Below are positions 2,683-21,834 of a DNA stretch of 21,834 bases, one piece after another. The stretch comes from a virus. Each line of letters opens with the position of its first letter. The first letter of the stretch is position 1. The DNA is taken from positions 1 to 21,834 of the IMG/VR virus record IMGVR_UViG_3300025115_000058. One strand, given 5' to 3'. The position numbers and the translations under genes were made by a program. A model generated the notes under the pieces. It did not search any database, was not told where the DNA came from, and saw only the letters and a list, made by a program, of their open reading frames with translations.

Positions 2683-4722
2683 TCAGTATTCGGCCCCGTA
2701 CCCGGAGCCCCATCCACCTTTATCACGCTTCCTGCGCTTCGGTCCATCCTCGTCGTCCATGTGACTCTGGCGGCGATTCTCGATGCGCCGTCGCATGGAT
2801 TCGCCATCTGCGGTGCGATACGCGCAATTAGAAACAACCACCCCGCACGCGACAAACGCACCCATCACAGGCACCGTAGTACAGTAAACATCAGCCTTCC
2901 CGGCGGGACTCACGCTTAAAACTTTCACGGCACTTCCCAGAACAGGTCTTGATGTCCTTGAACCGTGTTCCCATGAAAGCGATCCCGCAGGAAGCGCAAA
3001 TTCGCTCAATGTCATCGACTCCCGATTCTCGCCTGTGCTTTGCTGCGCATTTTGGCGAGCAAAACTTCGCAATGGAGCAAAGGCACAGTCGCTTTCATCC
3101 ATCGCGTCAATGCGTTTCCATATGCCCTTGGTCGTCAGTATTCGATGGTCCGGGGTGGCCACCATCGTTTGCCCATTGGATAACATCACATTTACGACAT
3201 CCCTGGAGACGCCAGTCTTGAAGCCACCTGCGCATGGATACCAGCGACCATCGGTAGAAAGAACAAGATCGTCGTCGCGAAGATCCTTCACAGGAACGTC
3301 ACCACGACCAGTCGTTACCGGTGTATTTGACGCGATGCACGCATACGCTACCGAATCGTACCAATGGTCGGTGTCGCATTTCAGCGGCGTGTCACGTTTC
3401 TCCGGGTCCAGATTGTCGTTGTCGGCCGGAATCGTCGGGAGGGTCTTCACGATGTTGTCCGTCAGTCCCGCGAAAAAGCAGATTCCGGGCCGCTGCATCC
3501 CGCCGCCGTGAGAATCCAACCTCGCCAATACCCGCTCGGCGTTCATCTTCCTCGAACGCTTGTCCGCCTTCGTCCAGATAACTCCGTGCCTCGCCATGCG
3601 CTCCGCGTGAGAGTCCGCCGATGACACCTCGCCCCAAAGGTTGGTGTCGGCTGGTCCGGTGATCTTGGAACGCCTCCCGTGCCAAAGCCCCATCTTCTCC
3701 TCGATTCGGCGGATCTCCATCGCCACCTCGTCGCCGTCCTTGAACCGGAACGAATACTCCCGCTCGCAGATCAAATTGCCATCCGGGTCCACCGCCCACC
3801 AATGAACACACCCGTACGACTTGTAGCCCCAGTCCAGCGACCGGAACCTCGGCCAGTCCCCGGGAATCCGGAACGGCGGAATTACGTGCAAGTCCGGTCG
3901 CCAGTGCTCCGCGAAGTAGGAGTCCGCCGTCACCCACCAGTCGCCGTAAAGCAACGCCCGCTTGATGTGCTCGGGTCGCCCAAGGAGCTTCTTCTTGTAC
4001 TGCTCCACGAACCCCTTGTCCGGGTTGTCGTCGATGGTCGCCGGGATGTAGATGCGGGTTACGTAGTCCCCGTTGTCCAACTTCTGCCGCATCAGCTTCC
4101 GCCCCGATGGCGCAGGGTCAACGAACACATCGCGCACCCACCCCGGGCCTGGATTGGAAGCGCCTCGAACGCACGCCATTCGCCGAAGCACCGGATTCGT
4201 CGCACGGTTACGCGAGCAAATTTGCTGATACTGCGTGTCCGTGAACTGCGTCATCTCATCGAAGAAGATGTGGACGTAGGAGTGCGTGTAGTAGTTCTCC
4301 CATGAGTCCGGATCCTTGCAATGGCCGAAGACGAACTGCAAACCGCTGGAAAAAACGAAGGTCATCGTCTTTTCGCGGAAACGCACGTTCGGGTCGATGG
4401 CCTTGAACACCGGAGCCGCACGGCGAATCGTGGTATCGAGACCCGCGGTCTTACGACGAAGGTGTAGGCACTGGTCGTCGGCGAGCGTCCCCCACTTCAC
4501 GATTCCACGCTTGCAGAGCTCGTTCGCCACCACCACGACCGGCATGGCGTCGTGTAGACCCCACAGGGATTTGCCAGTGCCAGCCGCACCCGCCACCAAC
4601 GCCTCGTCTACTCGAAGACGATGGCACTCTTTTCCCCATGGGGAAGCCTGGTATATCCCGGGAATCTCCACGAAGTCAATCTCGTGAAGCCGATCTGTTG
4701 GGATATTCGACAGGTCCAGCAT
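2683..4722 (-). CDS. terL: Terminase large subunit, interrupted by an intein
   Basis: ATP-driven packaging motor and nuclease that cuts and pumps phage DNA into the prohead through the portal. The ATPase domain shows Walker A AGAAGTGKS (residues ~44-52) and Walker B VHIFFDE (150-156). The RNase H-like nuclease domain shows acidic residues at D297 (SLDWGY), D359 (PADTNLW) and D456 (HWYDSVAYA). Residues 462-632 are an intein placed five residues after the last catalytic Asp. Splicing would join ...DSVAYA to CAYRTADGE..., leaving a 508-residue terminase, a normal size. The ATG abuts the TAA of the glycosyltransferase gene (TAAATG). The C-terminus after splicing is basic and short. Confidence 0.93.
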   Translation of the reverse strand: MLDLSNIPTDRLHEIDFVEIPGIYQASPWGKECHRLRVDEALVAGAAGTGKSLWGLHDAMPVVVVANELCKRGIVKWGTLADDQCLHLRRKTAGLDTTIRRAAPVFKAIDPNVRFREKTMTFVFSSGLQFVFGHCKDPDSWENYYTHSYVHIFFDEMTQFTDTQYQQICSRNRATNPVLRRMACVRGASNPGPGWVRDVFVDPAPSGRKLMRQKLDNGDYVTRIYIPATIDDNPDKGFVEQYKKKLLGRPEHIKRALLYGDWWVTADSYFAEHWRPDLHVIPPFRIPGDWPRFRSLDWGYKSYGCVHWWAVDPDGNLICEREYSFRFKDGDEVAMEIRRIEEKMGLWHGRRSKITGPADTNLWGEVSSADSHAERMARHGVIWTKADKRSRKMNAERVLARLDSHGGGMQRPGICFFAGLTDNIVKTLPTIPADNDNLDPEKRDTPLKCDTDHWYDSVAYACIASNTPVTTGRGDVPVKDLRDDDLVLSTDGRWYPCAGGFKTGVSRDVVNVMLSNGQTMVATPDHRILTTKGIWKRIDAMDESDCAFAPLRSFARQNAQQSTGENRESMTLSEFALPAGSLSWEHGSRTSRPVLGSAVKVLSVSPAGKADVYCTTVPVMGAFVACGVVVSNCAYRTADGESMRRRIENRRQSHMDDEDGPKRRKRDKGGWGSGYGAEY
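2827..3339 (-). mobile_element. Mini-intein in the terminase nuclease domain (171 aa)
   Basis: Hint-type protein-splicing element. It begins with Cys (CIASNTPVTTGRGDVPVKDL, block A), has a block B core with ATPDHRIL, and ends with DVYCTTVPVMGAFVACGVVV followed by Ser-Asn and a +1 Cys. The penultimate residue is Ser instead of His, as in some DnaE inteins. The usual block F Asp is Cys and the His is Ala. No LAGLIDADG or HNH motif is seen in frame. Residues ~547-600 of the host protein have no intein character, and the same DNA encodes a cysteine-rich zinc-finger pattern in another frame (see the separate entry). Whether this intein still splices cannot be told from sequence. Confidence 0.9.
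2891..3094 (-). other. Out-of-frame double zinc-finger segment inside the terminase intein
   Basis: In the reading frame shifted from the terminase frame, the open stretch from 3094 to the TGA at 2893-2891 encodes two cysteine clusters, FCSPKCAAKHRRE and ICASCGIAFMG...KTCSGKCRESFKR. These are typical of treble-clef/zinc-ribbon modules. If one T were added to the TTT at 3079-3081, the intein frame would read CAFCS into this module, giving CxxC-x5-CxxxC. Removing one base near the T-run at 2918-2921 would return to the block F frame (SVSPAGKADVY). There is no ATG or GTG in this frame upstream of the clusters and a stop precedes it at 3097-3095, so it is not an ordinary separate gene. Two compensating frameshifts, recoding or sequence error are the alternatives. 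Confidence 0.7.
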
Positions 4723-5451
4723 TTACCACACCGTATCCGGCGGACCGAAGTCGCCATTCATGTCGTAGTGACCCACCGCCACGCTGCAATCAATCGCGCA
4801 ACGGTAGCCGTACTTGCGGGCGTCTCCCCAAAACGCCAGGTCTTGCGTCCCGATACCTCCTTTGCCCGCCTTCGTCTCGAACCAAGGCTTTGCAAGTCGC
4901 GCGTCCTTGAACATCGACAACCGCCACAGGTTGAAGCCCATGCCGGTCCCACAGCATTCCACCAGCCCCCCGTTCGGGTCCGGCGGTTGCGGGCGGAAAT
5001 TCACGAGAGGATCTTTGGGATCTCCCCATATCTGCGGAACACCACCTTCACCCTTGGTCCAGTAGAGCCCGCCGATGCACGCCAGCTCAGGGTGCGCTTC
5101 CATCTTCTTCACCAGACTGATCACGCCATCCGAGGGCGGCATGTTGTCGTGTTCAATCGTCAGGATGTACTCCCAGTCCTTGAGCACCGGATGCTCCAAG
5201 ATGCCGGCGATTGCCTCGCTGTAAGCGCGTCCCACTTCCATCCCTTGCGCAAGGATTCGCACCACGCCGTTATTCGGCGGAAACCCAAGGTTCCAATGGG
5301 AGAGCGCCACCTTTGCCGAGATGGTATTCCCCGTTGGGATGATCACGACGATCCGCTGGTTCTTCCAAGAGCCATCCCTGATGATACGCGCCGCGCCTTC
5401 CTCGATTTTCGAGTTGCGCAACCCCGCGGTGTCCTGGATAAGCAAGCTCAC
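4723..5451 (-). CDS. Glycosyltransferase-like GT-A protein
   Basis: A 242-residue protein with GT-A/GT2 character. It has a hydrophobic strand (IVVIIPTGN), a DxD-like acidic turn (YILTIEHDNMPPSD), a CGTGMGFNLWR acceptor loop, and the C-terminal pattern TQDLAFWGDARKYGYR...SVAVGHYD that resembles the ED...GH ending of phage-encoded transferases. It probably transfers a sugar, to DNA, virion protein or host surface; the acceptor is unknown. Start: GTG at 5451 forms a GTGA overlap with the upstream stop and has GGTGAA before it. This copies the arrangement of the upstream gene pair. An ATG at 5490 would add 13 residues and overlap the upstream gene. The stop abuts the terminase ATG. Confidence 0.72.
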   Translation of the reverse strand: MSLLIQDTAGLRNSKIEEGAARIIRDGSWKNQRIVVIIPTGNTISAKVALSHWNLGFPPNNGVVRILAQGMEVGRAYSEAIAGILEHPVLKDWEYILTIEHDNMPPSDGVISLVKKMEAHPELACIGGLYWTKGEGGVPQIWGDPKDPLVNFRPQPPDPNGGLVECCGTGMGFNLWRLSMFKDARLAKPWFETKAGKGGIGTQDLAFWGDARKYGYRCAIDCSVAVGHYDMNGDFGPPDTVW

Positions 5452-12093: not shown

Positions 12094-12363
12094 ATGAGCC
12101 AGAGCCAGAATCTCGAACAAGCCACCGCCGCAGTTGAAGCCGCCCTCCGCGCAGCATCGCGCGCAAATGAGGTCGCCGCATTCGCCCTTGAAGCTGCAAG
12201 GGCTTTGCATAGGACTTTGAATAGCGCAACGTTGCGTGAACTAAATATGAAACGCGCCGTTGCTGCGGCGAATAAAGCCAATCAGGCGCACGTAATCGCT
12301 ACCCAAGCCGCAGAGGAGGCCACCTGTGAAGCGGTCAAGCTGTGCAACGCGCTGCCACGGTAG
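12094..12363 (+). CDS. Ala-rich helical early protein
   Basis: An 89-residue, alanine-rich, predicted all-helical protein (EQATAAVEAALRAASRANEV; later MKRAVAAANKANQAHVIATQ). It lies between two copies of the hairpin repeat and has AAAGGAAACC as ribosome site. Low sequence complexity prevents any family call. It may be a paralogue of the gene at 11762. Confidence 0.65.
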   Translation: MSQSQNLEQATAAVEAALRAASRANEVAAFALEAARALHRTLNSATLRELNMKRAVAAANKANQAHVIATQAAEEATCEAVKLCNALPR

Positions 12364-12367
12364 CCCC

Positions 12368-12420
12368 TTGGGCGTCGTTCGAGGGGGTGAGCTTCTCACC
12401 CCCTTCATAGGACACCTAAA
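12368..12420 (+). repeat. Intergenic hairpin repeat, copy 2 (type A)
   Basis: Nearly identical to copy 1: a 10-bp stem (12382-12404), loop CTT, flanks GGCGTCGTTCG and TTCATAGGACACCTAAA. Confidence 0.75.
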
Positions 12421-12451
12421 GCCAACCCGACCCACGAAAGGAAAACGACCA

Positions 12452-12619
12452 ATGAAGACCGCAGAATATCTCACCGCCGACAGCCTCCCGCCGACCCTTG
12501 ACTGGGAAGACGAACCCACCCTCCCGGATGCGTTTGCCAAGCTCAGCCCCTCGGATTTCGCGAGGCTGTGGGACGAGCAACCTAGGGCATTCGCCCGATT
12601 GATGGAGGTGGAGATATGA
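12452..12619 (+). CDS. Small acidic early protein
   Basis: A 55-residue acidic protein (MKTAEYLTADSLPPTLDWED..., with FARLWDEQPRAFARLMEVEI). The ATG at 12452 follows AAAGGAAAA; an earlier in-frame ATG lies in the hairpin repeat and is not used on this reading. The stop overlaps the next ATG (ATGA), so it is coupled to the next gene. Function unknown. Confidence 0.65.
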   Translation: MKTAEYLTADSLPPTLDWEDEPTLPDAFAKLSPSDFARLWDEQPRAFARLMEVEI

Positions 12620-12861
12620 GCCGTGCCGAGGCTGTACAGCGAGCCGTCGAGCTGGCGGGGACACGCGATGTGGCTTGGTTTCAAGGGCGTCCATCCATAT
12701 CCGAGGATTCGCCCCGTGAGGCATTGATCGCTTTCCTCGTTTGGAACGACGGTAACGGCATCTGGACCGACGACGACCTCATCTGTGAGGGATTGGAGCC
12801 GATGACCCTTGACGAGGCTTGGGAAGCCATCGGGAGTCTTCTATCAGACGCGATGGATTGA
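12616..12861 (+). CDS. Small acidic protein of unknown function
   Basis: An 81-residue protein (MSRAEAVQRAVELAGTRDVA..., then ALIAFLVWNDGNGIWTDDDL). It is predicted to be a compact helical domain, acidic at the C-terminus. Coupled to the preceding gene by ATGA. No family is recognised. Confidence 0.65.
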   Translation: MSRAEAVQRAVELAGTRDVAWFQGRPSISEDSPREALIAFLVWNDGNGIWTDDDLICEGLEPMTLDEAWEAIGSLLSDAMD

Positions 12862-12911
12862 ACGCCCTTCGAGGGGGGATCTACGGATCCCCCCTTCATA
12901 GGACGCCCAAT
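12857..12911 (+). repeat. Intergenic hairpin repeat, copy 3 (type B)
   Basis: Stem 12872-12895, AGGGGGGATC/GATCCCCCCT, with the tetraloop TACG closed by C-G (UNCG class). Flanks are ACGCCCTTCG and TTCATAGGACGCCC. The outer pair is ATTG (12857-12860) with CAAT (12908-12911). Confidence 0.75.
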
Positions 12912-12939
12912 TCAAACCCGACCGAAAGGAAACCCGACC

Positions 12940-13305
12940 ATGAAGACCATCCACGTTACCATTGAGCTTGTGAACGACGACGGCGAGCCGGAGGCGTTCG
13001 AGGTCCCGGCCTGTTACGAGGTCTGCGGGCGCTGCATGGGCGAGGGTCGATACGTTGACCCGCGATTCGACGGTCATGGGATCACTGAGCGCGAGTTCTC
13101 CGAGGAGTGGAGCGACGACGAGCGCGCCGCTTATTTCGCTGGCCGTTATGACGTGACGTGTTCTGTTTGTTCCGGCCTCCGCGTTGTTCGGGTCATCGAC
13201 CGTGACAGTGTCGAACCGGAACTCCTCGCACGGATTGACGAGAGGGCGCGCGAGGAAGAATTGTATCGGCAAATGGTCGCCGCTGAGCGACGGATGGGGG
13301 CTTAA
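12940..13305 (+). CDS. Zinc-finger-like phage protein
   Basis: A 121-residue acidic protein with two CxxC pairs, VCGRCMGEGRYV (residues ~29-40) and VTCSVCSGLRVV (~71-82). Together they could bind one zinc ion, in the style of DnaJ cysteine-rich motifs. Between them lies a negatively charged region (EREFSEEWSDDERAA). The arrangement resembles a small zinc-binding protein seen in other phages, whose role is unknown. AAAGGAAACCCGACC precedes the ATG. Confidence 0.7.
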   Translation: MKTIHVTIELVNDDGEPEAFEVPACYEVCGRCMGEGRYVDPRFDGHGITEREFSEEWSDDERAAYFAGRYDVTCSVCSGLRVVRVIDRDSVEPELLARIDERAREEELYRQMVAAERRMGA

Positions 13306-13319
13306 CCCGTTGATGGAAG

Positions 13320-13374
13320 ATTGAACGCCCTTCGAGGGGTCATCTTCGGATGACCCCTTCATAGGACGCCCAAT
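13320..13374 (+). repeat. Intergenic hairpin repeat, copy 4 (type B)
   Basis: Stem 13335-13358, AGGGGTCATC/GATGACCCCT, with TTCG loop closed by C-G. The arms differ from the other copies in both strands, preserving pairing. The outer pair ATTG/CAAT is retained. Confidence 0.78.
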
Positions 13375-13381
13375 TTAATAC

Positions 13382-13435
13382 TTGACCGCTTTACCGAAGT
13401 AAAGTAAACTAGCTTATCAGTTGGCAATCACGCCA
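13382..13435 (+). promoter_or_regulatory. Rightward promoter with spacer operator, before the clamp-like gene
   Basis: TTGACC (13382-13387), 17 bases, TAAACT (13405-13410). The spacer holds the inverted repeat CTTTAC-CGAA-GTAAAG (13389-13404), the same design as the promoter at 11541. A small hairpin TTGGC/GCCAA (13421-13436) lies in the leader. Confidence 0.65.
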
Positions 13436-13462
13436 AGCAACCAACCAACAAAGGAGCCGACC

Positions 13463-14023
13463 ATGCGATTCAATAAAACCCTCAAGATCGAAAATGCACT
13501 TTCAAATGACCCCACCCGGCCGCATATCGCGAACGCTTGGTATGACGTAGAGAACAAGACGTTGACCGCTACCGACGGCCACCGTTTGACCCGGATTGCC
13601 GTCACCGTCGATGAAGGCGATCACACTGGATGGATTACTGCCGATGCAATCAAGGCAGCTCGGAAGGCGGTCCCGAAGAGGGTGGACGATGCCCAGATTC
13701 TCGCCAATGGGGCGCTCGTTATTCCCAAGGGCCCAACGTTTGCACGGCCCTCGGATGAGGTGAAGCCACCACCGTTTGACCAGGTTATCCCGGACCCCTA
13801 CAGCGAGACCGAGACTACCCGGAAGCGCTCCGAGTTTTTCGGAATCAATCCCGACTATCTGTCCGACGCCATGGCGGCAATGGGCGGGAAGGGTATCGCG
13901 ATCTACCAGGCCGGTGGGAATCTCGACCCTGTGATCGTCACTCCGCGGCCATGGAAGAGCCAGGCGGAGTTCGAGCAATTGAAGCGCGAGTCTATCACCG
14001 TCGTCATGCCGATGCGCCTTTAG
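13463..14023 (+). CDS. Miniature DnaN-like sliding-clamp protein
   Basis: A 186-residue protein with clear marks of the bacterial DNA polymerase III beta clamp but only half its length (~366). Residues 35-45 LTATDGHRLTR match the VATDGHRLA segment of clamp domain II. ALVIPKG, PFDQVIP (compare PDYRRVLP) and INPDYLSDAMAAM follow in the clamp order. The last residues VVMPMRL equal the end of E. coli DnaN. It therefore covers a shortened domain II and III. It may act as a processivity factor, or bind clamp partners as a decoy (inference). AAAGGAG lies at the usual distance before the ATG. Its own promoter precedes it. Confidence 0.72.
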   Translation: MRFNKTLKIENALSNDPTRPHIANAWYDVENKTLTATDGHRLTRIAVTVDEGDHTGWITADAIKAARKAVPKRVDDAQILANGALVIPKGPTFARPSDEVKPPPFDQVIPDPYSETETTRKRSEFFGINPDYLSDAMAAMGGKGIAIYQAGGNLDPVIVTPRPWKSQAEFEQLKRESITVVMPMRL

Positions 14024-14073
14024 GCGTCGTTCGAGGGGGGATCTTCGGATCCCCCCTTCATAGGACACCTAAA
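14019..14073 (+). repeat. Intergenic hairpin repeat, copy 5 (type A)
   Basis: Stem 14034-14057, AGGGGGGATC/GATCCCCCCT, TTCG loop closed by C-G. The outer arms TTTAGGCGTC and GACACCTAAA pair with one mismatch. The left arm includes the stop codon of the clamp-like gene. Confidence 0.78.
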
Positions 14074-14100
14074 GCCAACCAACCAACAAAGGAACCGACC

Positions 14101-14481
14101 ATGAACAAACATCGACTTGAGACCATCGCCAGGCTTGCCAGGCTGGGATTTTCCGACCGTGATGTGGATACTCTCATCCGTGCATCGGCAACGCTCCACA
14201 CTTGGGCAGAGCACGAGTGCAACGGCGCCATTCAGCGCGACGAAGAAACGGGTAGACCCTACTGGCATTCGACCTACGACGGCCGGCGGTTCTCGAGAAC
14301 CTCGGACCGGGAGACCGGAGCTTTGAAGCGCGCACGCGCTATTGTCGAGGCCCACGGTTTCACCCTGTACCATCAGGGCGATCCGCGCGGTTGTTCGCTC
14401 TATATCCTCCGGCCGGGAGATGTGCCGGAAGGCGGGAACCCCGATTCCTACTACTACCGGGGAATGGCGGTGGTCCCATGA
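14101..14481 (+). CDS. Conserved small phage protein
   Basis: A 126-residue protein. The C-terminal part (FTLYHQGDPRGCSLYILRPG, then a YYYRGMAVV ending) resembles a small protein found in many phages of Proteobacteria whose function is unknown. The N-terminus (HRLETIARLARLGFSDRDVD) is helical. Start chosen at the ATG after AAAGGAACCGACC; the frame stays open further upstream through the hairpin repeat but without a ribosome site. Coupled to the next gene by ATGA. Confidence 0.7.
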   Translation: MNKHRLETIARLARLGFSDRDVDTLIRASATLHTWAEHECNGAIQRDEETGRPYWHSTYDGRRFSRTSDRETGALKRARAIVEAHGFTLYHQGDPRGCSLYILRPGDVPEGGNPDSYYYRGMAVVP

Positions 14482-16735: not shown

Positions 16736-19432
16736 ATGCAACTTACGCTTGTGAGGCCGCCGGCCACCGAACCACGCGATCCAATGGGACACCTGCGCGA
16801 CTACCAGCGCGCAAGCGTCCTTGGGGTCGAGACTTCGCTTGGCCGCGCGGACTCGGCGCTCCTGGTCCTGGCCACGGGATTAGGTAAATGTCTGGGGCGC
16901 GGTACGGGCGTTATGCTCTCTGACGGTCGCGTCGTTCCCGTTGAGGATGTTCGCGTCGGGCATCGCCTCATGGGCCCAGATGGCCGACCGAGGAATGTCC
17001 TTAGCACCACTCGTGGCACTGGTCCCTTGTATCGAATCGTCCCGGTGAAGGGAGATCCTTGGATTTGCAACGACGCCCATGTGTTGACTCTAAAGCACAC
17101 CGTCACGGGAGATGTGGTTGATATCGCTTTGCCGGATTATCTGCGCAAGGACAGGACATTTCGCCATGTGATGAAGCAGTTTGCCGTGCCCGTTGAAGCA
17201 TTTGAAAACGGCCGGACCGAGCTCTCCGTGGACCCGTATTTCCTGGGTGTCTGGCTTGGAGATGGCCGCAAGGATCTTTCCCAGGGGGTCCAAGTCTCAA
17301 AGCCTGATGTGGAAATCAGGAATGCGTGTGAGTCGATGGCAACGTCGTGGGGACTCGCTCTCAGGGTCGACAATTACAAGTCGTGTCCGACCTACAGGAT
17401 CGTTACTGAGGGAAGAAGAAACCCACTCAAGGACGAGATGGTGTCCTTGATGGATGGAACGCCGCGCGTTCCGCCCGTCTACTTGACGGCGGCTCGCCAT
17501 CATCGGCTTGCATTGTTGGCTGGCTTCCTGGACACGGACGGCTATGCGACCGGCGGCGGATGTGAGTTTGTCCAAAAGTCAAAGGACATCGCGCAAGGCA
17601 TGGTTTTTGTCGCCCGTTCCCTTGGGCTCAAAGCTGTTGTCTCCACGAAGACTGTCGGCCACGGCGATTATGTCAGGGTGTTCTTGTCCGGCGACTTCTC
17701 GGAAGTTCCATTTAGAATCAAGAGAAAAAAGCCCGAGGCAAGGCGCATAAACAAAGATCCGTTGCGCACGGGAATTTCGGTGGAGCCATTTGGCGACGGT
17801 GAATACTTCGGGTTCACTCTTGATGGGGACGGGAGGTTTCTACTTGGGGACTTCACCGTTACCCATAACACCGAAACGGCTATCGCCGTAGGGGCTCGCC
17901 ATCTCGCCGCCAACCCGGAGGGCCAGGTAGCGGTTCTCGCTGGCCGACAGGGGCTGGTGACGCAATTTGCGGAGCGCATCAAGCGCACCACCGGAGAGGA
18001 GGCCGAGATCGAAATGGGCGCCATCCGGTCGTTGCACTCCCGGTGGATCGTGTGCTCAAAGGACTCGCTCCACGCTGGACGCCTCAAGGGCATTCCGCAC
18101 CTCAAGCCGTCGCTGGTAATCGTCGATGAGGCCCACCACGCCGCGGCCGACTCCTACAAGAAGGTGCTCGAACACTTCGGAACGAAGACACTCGGACTCA
18201 CCGCTACCCCAGATCGGGCCGATGAAAAGGCGCTCGGAGCTGTGTTTGATGAGGTTGCCTACCAGTACGAGATCGACGACGGCATTAGGGACGGTTGGCT
18301 TGTCCCCATCAAGGTCTTCCGTTGCGTCGTTGACTCCCTGGATTTTTCATCGGTCAAGACCACCGCGGGAGACTTCAACCAGGCCGAGCTCGACGCCCTG
18401 ATGAAGGTCGAACAGGTAGCCCACAAGACGGTGCAGGTCGCACTTCAACACGGCGCCGAGAAAGCCCGGGGACTCGTGTTTACCACCAGCATCGAGAACG
18501 CCGACCTGCTCACGGAGGTATTCAACCACTACGCTCCCAAGTCCGCCGTATCGGTGGATTCCCGAAAGAAACCCGAGGACAACGCCCGGGCGTTCGCCGC
18601 CCACAAGTCCGGCGACGCTAAATGGATGGTCAACGTCGGGATGTATACCGAGGGCATGGACGATCCAGCGATTGACTTCATCGTAATGGCTCGCCCGACG
18701 AAATCCCGTGCGCTCTACGCCCAGTGCCTCGGTCGCGGCACCCGAACGCTGCCCGGAACAGTAACGCCCGCCATGAGCACGGCAGAGCGCCTGGAAGCTA
18801 TCGCTGCAAGCGCAAAGCCCTGCGCCGTGGTGCTGGACATTTCGGGCACCGCAGGGCGCCACAAGCTCGTGGGACCGGAGGACGTGCTGGGCGGCAAGTA
18901 CCCCGAGAGCTTGATTGCCAAGGCGAAGCGCAAGATCGCCGCATCCGGCAAGGTGGTCAACGTCGAGATGGCACTGGACTACCTGCGCCGCCAAGCTGAG
19001 ATTGCCAAGCGGCAGAAGATCCGCGATGCCGCAAAGGTAATGGCCAAAGTCGGATCTCGCCTCGAAGCGGTGGACCCATTCACGACGTTTGGGGTCGATG
19101 CTCCAAATTCATGGGGCGAACCCAACCGATACGGCTTCAAGCGCCCCACTCCAAGGATGGTCGAGGTCTTGAGGAAGATCGGAATCGAGCCGACCAGTAA
19201 ATTGTCTCACCGGGAAGCGTCTGCGCTCTTGACCGAGATGTCCCGCCGACGAGAACAAGGCCTCGCCACGTTCAAACAGCTTCGTACCCTGCGGCGTGCC
19301 GGCATCGTGGACTGCGCCAAGTGGTCTTTCATCAAGGCAAGCCGGACCATCGACGAGCTGGCAAAGGCAGGTTGGCGAATGTCCGCCGACCGCGTTCGAG
19401 AACTCGAAGCAACCGTGAGGGATATGGAATGA
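16736..19432 (+). CDS. SF2 DEAD/DEAH-type helicase, interrupted by an intein
   Basis: An 898-residue precursor; 571 residues after splicing. Motif I is ATGLGK|TETAIA, split by the intein between K51 and T379. Motif II is VIVDEAHH (461-468), motif III LTATP (488-492), then the MYTEGMDDP region (636-644), and motif VI QCLGRGTRT (663-671). These define a superfamily 2 helicase of the ResIII/UvsW-like kind, acting in replication or recombination. The C-terminal ~170 residues (VLRKIGIEPTSKLSHREAS, KQLRTLRRAG) form an extra helical domain, possibly DNA-binding. The stop overlaps the next start as ATGA. Confidence 0.9.
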   Translation: MQLTLVRPPATEPRDPMGHLRDYQRASVLGVETSLGRADSALLVLATGLGKCLGRGTGVMLSDGRVVPVEDVRVGHRLMGPDGRPRNVLSTTRGTGPLYRIVPVKGDPWICNDAHVLTLKHTVTGDVVDIALPDYLRKDRTFRHVMKQFAVPVEAFENGRTELSVDPYFLGVWLGDGRKDLSQGVQVSKPDVEIRNACESMATSWGLALRVDNYKSCPTYRIVTEGRRNPLKDEMVSLMDGTPRVPPVYLTAARHHRLALLAGFLDTDGYATGGGCEFVQKSKDIAQGMVFVARSLGLKAVVSTKTVGHGDYVRVFLSGDFSEVPFRIKRKKPEARRINKDPLRTGISVEPFGDGEYFGFTLDGDGRFLLGDFTVTHNTETAIAVGARHLAANPEGQVAVLAGRQGLVTQFAERIKRTTGEEAEIEMGAIRSLHSRWIVCSKDSLHAGRLKGIPHLKPSLVIVDEAHHAAADSYKKVLEHFGTKTLGLTATPDRADEKALGAVFDEVAYQYEIDDGIRDGWLVPIKVFRCVVDSLDFSSVKTTAGDFNQAELDALMKVEQVAHKTVQVALQHGAEKARGLVFTTSIENADLLTEVFNHYAPKSAVSVDSRKKPEDNARAFAAHKSGDAKWMVNVGMYTEGMDDPAIDFIVMARPTKSRALYAQCLGRGTRTLPGTVTPAMSTAERLEAIAASAKPCAVVLDISGTAGRHKLVGPEDVLGGKYPESLIAKAKRKIAASGKVVNVEMALDYLRRQAEIAKRQKIRDAAKVMAKVGSRLEAVDPFTTFGVDAPNSWGEPNRYGFKRPTPRMVEVLRKIGIEPTSKLSHREASALLTEMSRRREQGLATFKQLRTLRRAGIVDCAKWSFIKASRTIDELAKAGWRMSADRVRELEATVRDME
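16889..17869 (+). mobile_element. Full-length LAGLIDADG intein in the helicase P-loop (327 aa)
   Basis: Splicing domain: Cys1 (CLGRGTGVMLSDGRVVPVED), block B WICNDAHVLTL, block F YFGFTLDGDGRFLLGDF and the C-terminal VTHN with Thr as +1 residue. In block B the usual TxxH reads NDAH. The homing endonuclease has two LAGLIDADG-like helices, FLGVWLGDG (169-177) and LAGFLDTDG (261-269), with acidic residues D176 and D268 intact. It therefore looks active both as splicing element and as homing enzyme. Insertion between the P-loop Lys and Thr is a common site for inteins in NTPases. Confidence 0.93.
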
Positions 19433-19782
19433 GCAACGTCAGCGGCATTGGATTCGGCGACGGCAACGGCGATGGATTCGGCGACGGCAACGGCGATGGC
19501 TACGGCTACGGCGGCGGAGACGGCGGAGCCGGCAACGGTAACGGCGGAGCCGGCAACGGTAACGGCTCCGGTGATGGCAACGGAAGCGGCAGCGGCGGAG
19601 GCGGCGGTAACGGCGGCGGCAGCGGTAGCGGCAACAGCGGCGGCGGCGGCAGGGGCAGCGGGGGCGGATACGGCAACGGCATAGGCCACGGTAGGGGCAA
19701 CGTCAGCGGCATTGGATACGGCGACGGTAACGGCGACGGCAGAGGCTTCAACTACGAGTCAGCAACGCGGAGGGCGCGATGA
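19429..19782 (+). CDS. Glycine-rich cassette protein 1
   Basis: A 117-residue protein in which Gly is nearly every second residue (GDGNGDGFGDGNGDGYGYGG). The other positions are Asp, Asn, Ser, Tyr, Arg and His. It ends FNYESATRRAR, a version of the C-terminal tag shared by the family. It starts as ATGA on the helicase stop and ends as ATGA on the next copy. The strict GX pattern could form polyglycine-type or Ca-binding structure (inference). The same DNA is open in other frames only because of the hexamer-like repeat. Confidence 0.72.
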   Translation: MSNVSGIGFGDGNGDGFGDGNGDGYGYGGGDGGAGNGNGGAGNGNGSGDGNGSGSGGGGGNGGGSGSGNSGGGGRGSGGGYGNGIGHGRGNVSGIGYGDGNGDGRGFNYESATRRAR

Positions 19783-20036
19783 AACCCGCTGAAAACGAAG
19801 TGACGTACTACGGTCACGGCCACGGCGATGGCATGGGCGGAGGCGGATACGGCAACGGCGACGGAGGCGGCAGGGGCGAAGGTAGCGGCGACGGAAGAGG
19901 CAACGGCTGCGGCGGTGGCGACGGCATCGGCGACGGCTTCGGTAGTGGATGGGGCGGCGGGAGCGGCAGCGGGGGCGGCTCCAAATACGGCTTTGGCTGG
20001 GACTACAAATCATCGACGCGGAGGGCGAAAGAATGA
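19779..20036 (+). CDS. Glycine-rich cassette protein 2
   Basis: An 85-residue member of the same family. The N-terminus reads NEVTYYGHGHGDG, a version of the THYG start. The middle is (GX)n, and the end is FGWDYKSSTRRAKE. Overlaps both neighbours by ATGA. Unlike the tail alone, the middle varies freely in length between copies. Confidence 0.72.
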   Translation: MKPAENEVTYYGHGHGDGMGGGGYGNGDGGGRGEGSGDGRGNGCGGGDGIGDGFGSGWGGGSGSGGGSKYGFGWDYKSSTRRAKE

Positions 20037-20311
20037 GCGACGACGACTGGGGCATTGATGTCGAGCACGAGGAACCGGAAGTAGATCCTGCTTCCACCCG
20101 ATTCATGGCCGACAAGCGGGCGCAAGCTCTCCACACCCGAAGGGTCGATAACGTCGAGGCGCAAATCCGGGCAAACCGCCCTGGCTGGAAGCTGATTTCG
20201 TCGTGGCCCCACCTTCGGCTCTGGGAAACCGATCAATTCACTTACGCCGCCCATTCGGACGGCAAACCATTCATCGTGTCGGCGGTTATGCCGCGAGAAG
20301 GAAAGAAATGA
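20033..20311 (+). CDS. Small unknown protein between glycine-rich cassettes
   Basis: A 92-residue protein. The acidic start MSDDDWGIDVEHEEPEVDP is followed by a basic helical part (KRAQALHTRRVDNVEAQIRA) and a beta-rich end. No family is recognised. ATGA overlaps on both sides. Confidence 0.65.
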   Translation: MSDDDWGIDVEHEEPEVDPASTRFMADKRAQALHTRRVDNVEAQIRANRPGWKLISSWPHLRLWETDQFTYAAHSDGKPFIVSAVMPREGKK

Positions 20312-20619
20312 GCATCGAGAAGTGGGGGCTTGAAGTCAGCGATGCGCAAATGCTTCGCGTGAAGTTCGAGGCCAAGCGATGGAAGGACATTGCTGTCTTG
20401 GCAAAGTCGCTGGCGAACATCCTGAGAAAGTCGGAGGGCCGGCTGAACACCGATTCCGCCGTGGTGATGCTGCATCAGGTGGCCGAGCTTGCGAAGAATT
20501 GCACGCCAGTTGCCATATGCCCATGGTGCAACGCCGACGGTGGCGAATGTTCGAGGTGCATGGGGACCGGTGCTATCGGTCCGTTGTTGATGGACGCTGC
20601 AAAGGAGATGAAGAAATGA
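20308..20619 (+). CDS. Small protein with a zinc-binding CxxC pair
   Basis: A 103-residue protein. The helical N-terminal two thirds (VLAKSLANILRKSEGRLNTD) is followed by CPWCNADGGECSRCMGTGAI, two CxxC motifs nine residues apart with the CxGxG style of DnaJ-like zinc sites. Function unknown. Coupled by ATGA to both neighbours. Confidence 0.67.
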   Translation: MSIEKWGLEVSDAQMLRVKFEAKRWKDIAVLAKSLANILRKSEGRLNTDSAVVMLHQVAELAKNCTPVAICPWCNADGGECSRCMGTGAIGPLLMDAAKEMKK

Positions 20620-20870
20620 ACAAGACCTATGGGAAATACGATTCGCTCAAGGCTATTTCTGAATCGGAACAAGGGTATTACAACCTCGGCCAGATCCACG
20701 GCGACAAGTGCGGCTTTCTGCGCGGGACACTCGCAGCGATGAAGCTCATTGCGCTTGAGGGAGATCGCTTGTCGAAAGAGGGGGACTTCAAAGCCGCCGA
20801 GTTGGCGAATGAGTTTGTGGAAAAACTCAGGGCGACCATCGAGCCAAAGCGGAATGGGCCAGTGCAATGA
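20616..20870 (+). CDS. Small helical unknown protein
   Basis: An 84-residue protein, probably mostly helical (GKYDSLKAISESEQGYYNLG ... GDFKAAELANEFVEKLRATI). No family is recognised. It lies between the CxxC protein and the third glycine-rich cassette, with ATGA overlaps on both sides. Confidence 0.65.
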   Translation: MNKTYGKYDSLKAISESEQGYYNLGQIHGDKCGFLRGTLAAMKLIALEGDRLSKEGDFKAAELANEFVEKLRATIEPKRNGPVQ

Positions 20871-21409
20871 GCACGCGCTACGGTCACGGCAACGGTGACG
20901 GCTGCGGCGACGGCTACGGCTTCGGTTTCGGCTACGGCAGCGGAAGCGGAAGCGGACACGGCATGGGCACCGGCGACGGCAGGGGCAGCGGATACAACTA
21001 CAAATCAGCAACACGAACAACAGAGGGCAAAATGAGCACGAGCACGAAGAAGAAGATCACGAAGACCAAAACCAAGGCCAAGAAAGCAACCAAGAGAGCA
21101 ACCGCGAAGAACCACCTCGGCAAGCTGGTTATCCTGCGCGGCTACCTGTCCGGTGTCCACATCGCGATCCTGCGCGACTACGGTCGGAAAACAGGGTGGA
21201 TCCGAGTAGATGGGGCTCGACGGCTCTGGTCCTGGCAGGGCGCAACCACGCTCGATGCGATCAGCCGCAACGGAGCGGCGGAGACAGGGTGCCGCGTGAC
21301 AGAAGCTGTCGATGACCTCGAGATCAAAGTATCGGACGTGTGCGAGATTTACCCGATGTCCGAAAAGGCGATCGCATGGGTGAATCGTCAACCGGTGTGG
21401 ACGCTGTAA
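20867..21409 (+). CDS. Glycine-rich cassette 3 fused to a DUF6948-like domain
   Basis: A 180-residue protein. Residues 1-50 are a cassette (TRYGHGNGDG ... YNYKSATR). The reading frame then continues through TTEGK into MSTSTKKKITKTKTKAKKAT and a folded domain (KLVILRGYLSGVHIAILRDY ... ARRLWSWQGATTLDAIS) resembling the phage DUF6948 family. In other copies a stop follows the cassette tag. Here the stop is missing, so the two are joined. The internal ATG at 21032 has AGAGGG before it and could start the 125-residue domain alone. The Lys/Thr-rich linker suggests nucleic-acid binding (inference). Confidence 0.72.
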   Translation: MSTRYGHGNGDGCGDGYGFGFGYGSGSGSGHGMGTGDGRGSGYNYKSATRTTEGKMSTSTKKKITKTKTKAKKATKRATAKNHLGKLVILRGYLSGVHIAILRDYGRKTGWIRVDGARRLWSWQGATTLDAISRNGAAETGCRVTEAVDDLEIKVSDVCEIYPMSEKAIAWVNRQPVWTL

Positions 21410-21468
21410 GCAGACTGGCATCCCGTGCGTGCGCTCACAGATCGGCGCACGGGACCGAGGGCAACACG
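21410..21468 (+). promoter_or_regulatory. Intergenic hairpin before cassette 4
   Basis: CCCGTGCG (21422-21429) pairs perfectly with CGCACGGG (21446-21453). GAGGG follows as a ribosome site for the next gene. No T-run is present, so an attenuator or cassette-border structure is as likely as a terminator. Confidence 0.5.
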
Positions 21469-21546
21469 ATGAAAAAAACGCATTACGGAGGCGGCGAGGG
21501 CGGCGGCTACGACTACAAATCCGCGACGCGGAAGGCGCAACGATGA
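21469..21546 (+). CDS. Minimal glycine-rich cassette 4 (25 aa)
   Basis: MKKTHYGGGEGG, then GYDYKSATRKAQR: the conserved start and end of the family with almost no glycine middle. It shows that the two ends are the constant parts and the middle is expandable. Overlaps cassette 5 by ATGA. Confidence 0.62.
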   Translation: MKKTHYGGGEGGGYDYKSATRKAQR

Positions 21547-21776
21547 GCGACGAAACGCATTACGGTGACGGCATCGGCGGCGGCAGCGGCAGCGGCGACG
21601 GAATCGGCTACGGCGACGGATTCTGCAGCGGCGACGGAAGAGGCAGAGGCAGCGGCGAGGCCGACGGCAGTGGCAGGGGCCACGGTAGCGGCATGTGCAT
21701 GGGCAGCGGCAGCGGCGACGGTAGGGGCGGGGTGGGCTTCGACTACAAATCGGCAACACGGAAGGCGCAACGATGA
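21543..21776 (+). CDS. Glycine-rich cassette protein 5
   Basis: A 77-residue protein starting MSDETHYGDG, with a GX-rich middle (GGGSGSGDGIGYGDG) containing two cysteines, and ending VGFDYKSATRKAQR. The tag is identical to that of cassette 4. The tag DNA ends in GGAAGGCGCAACG directly before the next ATG and so carries the next ribosome site. Confidence 0.7.
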   Translation: MSDETHYGDGIGGGSGSGDGIGYGDGFCSGDGRGRGSGEADGSGRGHGSGMCMGSGSGDGRGGVGFDYKSATRKAQR

Positions 21777-21834
21777 GCGACGCAGAAACACACTACGGCA
21801 GCGGTAGCGGTAGCGGCAGCGGAGGCAGTAGCGG
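21773..21834 (+). CDS. Glycine-rich cassette 6, cut by the window end
   Basis: Begins MSDAETHYGSGSGSG and runs off the window. Same start as cassette 5. The array therefore continues to the right. Confidence 0.65.
   Translation, partial: MSDAETHYGSGSGSGSGGSS

Follow-up and report, generated by a model that had tools for sequence, protein, structure and literature searches.

A glycine-cassette array at the end of a viral contig as an apparent expansion of a two-part phage module with a predicted Sm-like barrel

The window analysed in this study is the whole of the IMG/VR virus record IMGVR_UViG_3300025115_000058 (21,834 bases), and its right edge at position 21834 is therefore the end of the contig. 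From position 19429 onward, it carries an array of glycine cassettes, i.e. coding units with a middle of the type (GX)n, in which every second residue is a glycine. All genes described in this array are located on the plus strand, and most of them begin inside the ATGA stop of the preceding gene, with an overlap of 4 base pairs. There are six cassettes, the last of which is truncated at the contig end, and three small globular genes are interleaved with them (Table 1). An initial annotation had described the same head-to-tail coupling and interleaving.

The cassette middles have a period of two residues, and the shortest comprise only a few residues whereas the longest reach about 100. The DNA repeats within them are spaced by multiples of 6 nucleotides. 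When GX tracts were strictly defined, three were observed in the array region as compared to 0 in 300 first-order Markov shuffles of this region, and none was found elsewhere in the window. The cassette ends, in the order listed in Table 1, are variants of [DN]Y[KE]S[AS]TRxAxR, and the DNA of the end/start junction is present in four places with 69-92% identity to the reference copy (family D5). An (x)TxYG start motif is found in five of the six cassettes (VTYYG, TRYG, THYG, THYG and ETHYG), cassette 1 (MSNVSGIGFGDG) being the one that lacks it. The conserved DYKSATRKAQR-like end of the initial annotation thus stands, but its THYG/TRYG-like start does not extend to every cassette. A YG or WG start is a leader common to the cassettes and the three interleaved globular genes (20033-20870), and is seen in 0 of the 22 window genes that precede the array.

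Table 1. Organization of the glycine-cassette array and of the fusion point within it
Feature	Position	Strand	Length (amino acids)	Start	End tag	Remarks
GX cassette 1	19429..19782	+	117		NYESATRRAR	ATGA overlap with the upstream helicase stop
GX cassette 2	19779..20036	+	85	VTYYG	DYKSSTRRAKE	
Interleaved small globular gene	20033..20311	+	92	MSDDDWG		No family match
Interleaved small gene	20308..20619	+	103	MSIEKWG		CPWC...CSRC zinc-ribbon-like motif
Interleaved small gene	20616..20870	+	84	MNKTYG		
GX cassette 3	20867..21031	+	55	TRYG	NYKSATRTTEGK	Without a stop of its own
AAAA run at the cassette 3/DUF6948 fusion point	21029..21032	+				Fusion depends on this run
DUF6948 (PF22253) Sm-like gene	21032..21409	+				Lysine-rich N-terminal arm; E 5e-13
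Mini GX cassette 4	21469..21546	+	25	KTHYG	DYKSATRKAQR	
GX cassette 5	21543..21776	+	77	ETHYG	DYKSATRKAQR	
GX cassette 6	21773..21834	+				Truncated at the contig end

The initial annotation had counted at least six such genes. The array was confirmed with six cassettes, but cassette 3 reads in frame via GGC AAA ATG into a downstream protein of 125 residues, the last part of which is a DUF6948 domain. This domain scored 49.4 bits, above the curated PF22253 cut-off of 27, and its lysine-rich arm has a charge of +11. The internal ATG at 21032 is preceded by a GAGGG ribosome site, and initiation there would also yield DUF6948 alone. Since one A fewer in the AAAA run restores the usual ATGA overlap of stop and start, we may be dealing with a real fusion, a programmed one, or an error of the assembly in which an A was miscounted.

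DUF6948 proved to be a constant neighbour of GX genes in other genomes. The loci described below are samples of the best or first matches listed, to which all percentages refer, and a single fixed GX definition was used to score adjacency. The viral samples comprised 80 loci with DUF6948 and 80 with a divergent DUF6948-like subfamily (A5), many of which are near-copies, with 44 and 53 distinct barrel sequences, respectively, left after thinning. The first relative to be found, locus L007, lies upstream of several GX genes, three of which have a common constant start (TQNNTQ or AQNNTQ). A GX gene was located directly downstream of DUF6948 in all 77 viral loci with room for one, and for the divergent subfamily it was located downstream in 70 of 79 loci and upstream only in 8, so that 78 of 79 adjoin. 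Across 1.1 Mb, 168 GX tract frames were found near a barrel gene versus 6 that are far from it in the same orientation and 4 on the opposite strand. In 125 of 132 cases, the GX start and the barrel stop are at most 20 nucleotides apart, most often with an overlap of 4 or 16-19 nucleotides; in locus L232 both parts are joined as one protein, and in L199 the GX tract is in frame with a barrel-like domain.

The same arrangement was observed on bacterial and archaeal genome contigs, where 38 of the 41 DUF6948 loci with room (45 in total) have a GX gene directly downstream. These loci span Betaproteobacteria, Neisseria, Chlorobi, Cyanobacteria, Planctomycetes, Bacteroidaceae, Woesearchaeota, Thermoplasmata and more, with the caveat that contigs assigned to metagenome-assembled genomes may be viral or misbinned. 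They were found by an alignment-based scan, whereas a scan of the genome contigs with the window domain alone gave no match. Conversely, when GX loci were picked by their DNA pattern, the barrel domain was present just upstream in 56 of the 68 with enough upstream sequence. The pairing of barrel gene and GX gene is well supported, and its constancy across phages of so many phyla implies that the pair must be useful. Cultured phages that carry the module are Iodobacter phage phiPLPE, Pectobacterium phages Koroua and Sabo, Rheinheimera phage Barba23A and Eggerthella phage PMBT5, and it is also present in Neisseria prophages. In most of the annotated phages seen, the GX genes are situated among early genes and not among adhesin or secretion genes; a tail-fibre gene is located near the Pectobacterium pair. 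DNA similarity between the region and phage records was discounted, as the GX repeats alone carry the match, although it still led to module-bearing phages. The existing labels of both module halves are 'unknown' or misnomers, such as 'lamprin' and 'adsorption protein'.

GX tails also have partners besides the barrel. In loci L246 (around position 2028) and L261 a GX tract is fused C-terminally to a phage domain of a different kind (MKGYKGMNAHMKCRGMQYEVGKTY...), which we presume to be DUF7666-like. In Bacteroidaceae-type loci (L010, positions 4273-4794, and L202), the GX tract that follows DUF6948 is part of a larger protein, and the C-terminal domain of this protein (IKTFNGDKVYIIDDIPT...) is conserved but gave no match to any Pfam family. 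Further downstream in L007 (10734-12416) are glycine-rich genes with a longer and less regular repeat, e.g. TGFGNG..SSG, which could form beta-solenoids.

The GX proteins have a median length of 90 residues (range 32-131) and usually consist of an N-terminal tag followed by GX up to the stop. The tag is MSKLNKP in partners of DUF6948, and EDSQNS or EDAHSLIG in partners of the divergent subfamily. X is Ser, Tyr, Asn or Asp at about 89% of the sites in the former and 98% in the latter, and about 32% of the X sites are aromatic. The tracts thus have the low-complexity composition of aromatic and polar residues plus glycine by which prion-like or condensate-forming domains are recognised. Tyr, His, Asn and Asp together occupy 74% of the X sites versus 0.9% for Lys, Gln and Glu, despite the fact that the respective NAY and NAR codons differ in the third base only. 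This indicates that selection on the GX tract acts on the protein. The glycine codons of the tracts range from 0 to 1 in their third-position GC content (GC3) across phyla, but this value correlates only weakly with the GC content of the locus (r 0.30), and the contrast in X residues is therefore the better argument for protein-level selection.

Two to four GX copies, each set with its own N-terminal tag, are also found elsewhere, namely in loci L007 (MTQNNTQ), L083 (LKLNNIFEVSG), L131 (MSNFNKEY) and L084 (MSIEH). Moreover, 15 of 16 distinct GX alleles of Neisseria prophages share length parity and, therefore, insertions and deletions occur in GX units, so that lengths vary in two-residue steps. 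The idea of an expandable family, as put forward in the initial annotation, is supported by these observations. By contrast, a search for the tag DYKSATRKAQR in other viral contigs yielded chance matches only, and this tag is therefore particular to the lineage of the window. It could be argued that the array represents a functionless repeat expansion beside a conserved gene, where slippage-prone DNA is retained as harmless, and the six-nucleotide repeat structure and the length polymorphism would fit this. However, the frame, the alternation and the X alphabet are kept over many phyla at any glycine GC3 from 0 to 1, and the barrel pairing is near-universal and extends to fusion. We regard this explanation, which the protein-level constraint on X already contradicts, as very improbable.

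What the barrel may do was approached through its family and predicted fold. All 46 aligned DUF6948 sequences match PF22253; the PF22253 and PHROG 18306 entries give no function, no visible fold assignment and no mention of a GX partner. An AlphaFold2 model of the window domain (46 sequences, single chain) has a predicted local distance difference test score (pLDDT) above 90 for most domain residues. It contains an N-terminal helix (80-83) followed by strands at 87-92, 96-106, 111-122, 148-154 and 158-163, i.e. the predicted elements of a five-stranded Sm barrel in the Sm order. When this model was compared to the PDB with Foldseek, the top 50 matches were all Sm, LSm or SmAP proteins, with target-normalised template modelling (TM) scores of up to 0.84. 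The model of the divergent subfamily (mean pLDDT 92) matched PDB entry 3by7 best and then mostly Sm/LSm proteins. In sequence, 29 of 46 members of this subfamily match PF22253, if weakly (best 1.6e-6), and its profile aligns with that of DUF6948 at an E-value of 5e-4 and a probability of 32. The two subfamilies may belong to one superfamily. Further Pfam matches such as TrAA12 and keratin-associated proteins were rejected as low-complexity matches.

The best explanation for these observations is that the window array is an expanded form, with its own tags, of a widespread two-part phage module composed of the barrel and a GX partner, and the initial interpretation of the array as a whole is thus partly supported. 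That annotation had listed matrix, calcium binding, condensate and decoy as candidate functions, and had overlooked the constant Sm-like partner. It is this partner that points to a condensate or scaffold role, whereas calcium binding, matrix and decoy gained no specific support. Of the explanations considered, the likeliest, with a probability of roughly 0.4, is that the module divides an Sm-like barrel and its low-complexity tail between two proteins, which together form the scaffold of a nucleoprotein condensate or gel. The barrel would assemble as a ring or oligomer and bind RNA or single-stranded DNA, or else dock on such a complex, and the GX chains would attach to it via their constant end tags or via fusion, so that barrel and GX protein would act together as a physical complex. 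By supplying many weak Tyr, Asn, Asp and Gly contacts, the chains might then drive condensation, in the early phase of infection, into a droplet-like or gel-like assembly that serves phage nucleoprotein as a scaffold. In the lineage of the window, multiple cassettes with common end tags would raise the number of tails. As these tags are near-identical, recombination between them would allow changes of copy number and length without loss of the reading frame.

Several observations weigh against this reading. The GX region is modelled at low confidence, which is compatible with disorder but does not prove it, and 12 of the 68 GX loci picked by DNA pattern have another or an unrecognised partner. 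The Foldseek E-values versus the PDB are only about 1e-3, and hhalign comparisons of the barrel profiles with small profiles of Hfq and LSM, to which two well-known sequences contributed, gave no match (probabilities below 1). SM-ATX, the next Pfam match of DUF6948, is in line with an Sm-like fold but was sub-threshold (4 of 46 sequences, best 0.0054). As the support at the sequence level is so thin, we refer to the barrel as Sm-like in its predicted fold, which is well supported by the models, and do not call it a member of the Sm family. In our own reading of the alignment, the position of the Sm RNA-binding loop reads LEAIEI and not RG or KH, so RNA binding by the barrel is not assured. Lastly, a fixed role in recombination, as prompted by Erf, RecE and SSB neighbours in annotated phages and in the window, was weakened by counts in 50 viral records: ERF was present in 7 and SSB in 11, and there is therefore no fixed tie to recombination.

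The strict pairing and gene overlap would also suit a barrel that chaperones or caps the GX chain. In that case, the chain could assemble into an ordered material (beta-sheet, polyglycine-II or an amyloid-like fibre) that acts mechanically or as a barrier, with no involvement of nucleic acid. The strict period of two and the two-residue indel steps suit an ordered repeat, and bundles of glycine-rich helices occur both in phage adhesins and in antifreeze proteins (PMC8409303). However, the Sm fold occurs mostly in nucleic-acid-binding proteins, and the window barrel carries a lysine-rich arm. In addition, the polyglycine-II bundles that are generally known lack a strict GX alternation. We consider an ordered material unlikely. 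Alternatively, the GX partner might be an acidic aromatic decoy or inhibitor which the barrel, as its targeting subunit, directs against a nucleic-acid-binding or defence protein of the host in order to block it. Indeed, GX proteins are mostly acidic (median net charge -7), vary fast in length, and are encoded among small early genes with lineage-specific tags. Yet, the set of residues at X hardly varies from phylum to phylum, in which these proteins differ from most anti-defence proteins, and the window cassettes are close to neutral (-3 to +4), which makes a decoy rather improbable.

Three other features of the window were recorded. A DNA helicase gene at 16736-19432 is split by a Hint/LAGLIDADG intein-like insert (PF05203, PF05204, PF14528), and the terminase large subunit gene on the minus strand (2683-4722) has an apparent second, short intein-like insert (CIASNTPVTTGRGDVPVKDL ... 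VVSNCAYR). Leader-like frames (PLGVVRGG...PTKxPTM) recur upstream of several small genes at 12326-14101, which suggests a repeated DNA element ahead of their starts.

The two-part module is widespread and apparently undescribed: in open-licence texts we found neither the name DUF6948 nor such a gene pair, although a description elsewhere is possible. If barrel and chain do condense, phages would own an LSm-plus-tail system that is minimal and genetically separable, as one gene would encode the scaffold and another the client-binding part, with natural variation in tail length. A broader and more doubtful proposal is that bacterial and archaeal phages and prophages have a two-gene condensate kit in common, with a nucleic-acid-recruiting Sm-like ring and a separate, length-adjustable (GX)n chain that forms the droplet or gel. 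This kit would be a viral counterpart, possibly of independent origin, of the eukaryotic RNA granules built on LSm domains with disordered tails, and cassette duplication, as in the window, would tune the number of tails.

Among known systems, the best structural match of the divergent subfamily, PDB 3by7, is annotated as resembling RNA-binding proteins of the Sm/LSm type in structure, but gave no sequence match at E<1; it is of putative cyanophage origin. Polyglycine-II bundles, as in the phage S16 adhesin and the snow flea antifreeze protein, and RTX calcium repeats share the glycine-rich repeats, but the phage module alternates glycine at every second residue with Tyr, Asp, Asn or Ser, while these bundles and repeats, to our knowledge, follow other patterns. 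There is also a likeness to Lsm4 and Ataxin-2 with their low-complexity tails and to Hfq with its C-terminal tail, where a barrel, Sm-like by prediction in our case, is combined with a low-complexity region rich in granule-assembly residues. Ataxin-2 combines an LSm domain with a disordered region, and this region drives messenger ribonucleoprotein granules (PMC11166328). The tails of Lsm4 promote P-bodies, as cited in later work (Decker 2007, Arribas-Layton 2016, via PMC11166328 and PMC9265587), and Hfq is reported to bind single-stranded DNA in an amyloid-like manner (PMC10392684). The phage module differs from these proteins in that sequence homology of its barrel to Sm, LSm or Hfq is undetectable, and in that its tail, with a strict GX alternation, is usually encoded by a separate, overlapping gene carried by phages and prophages.

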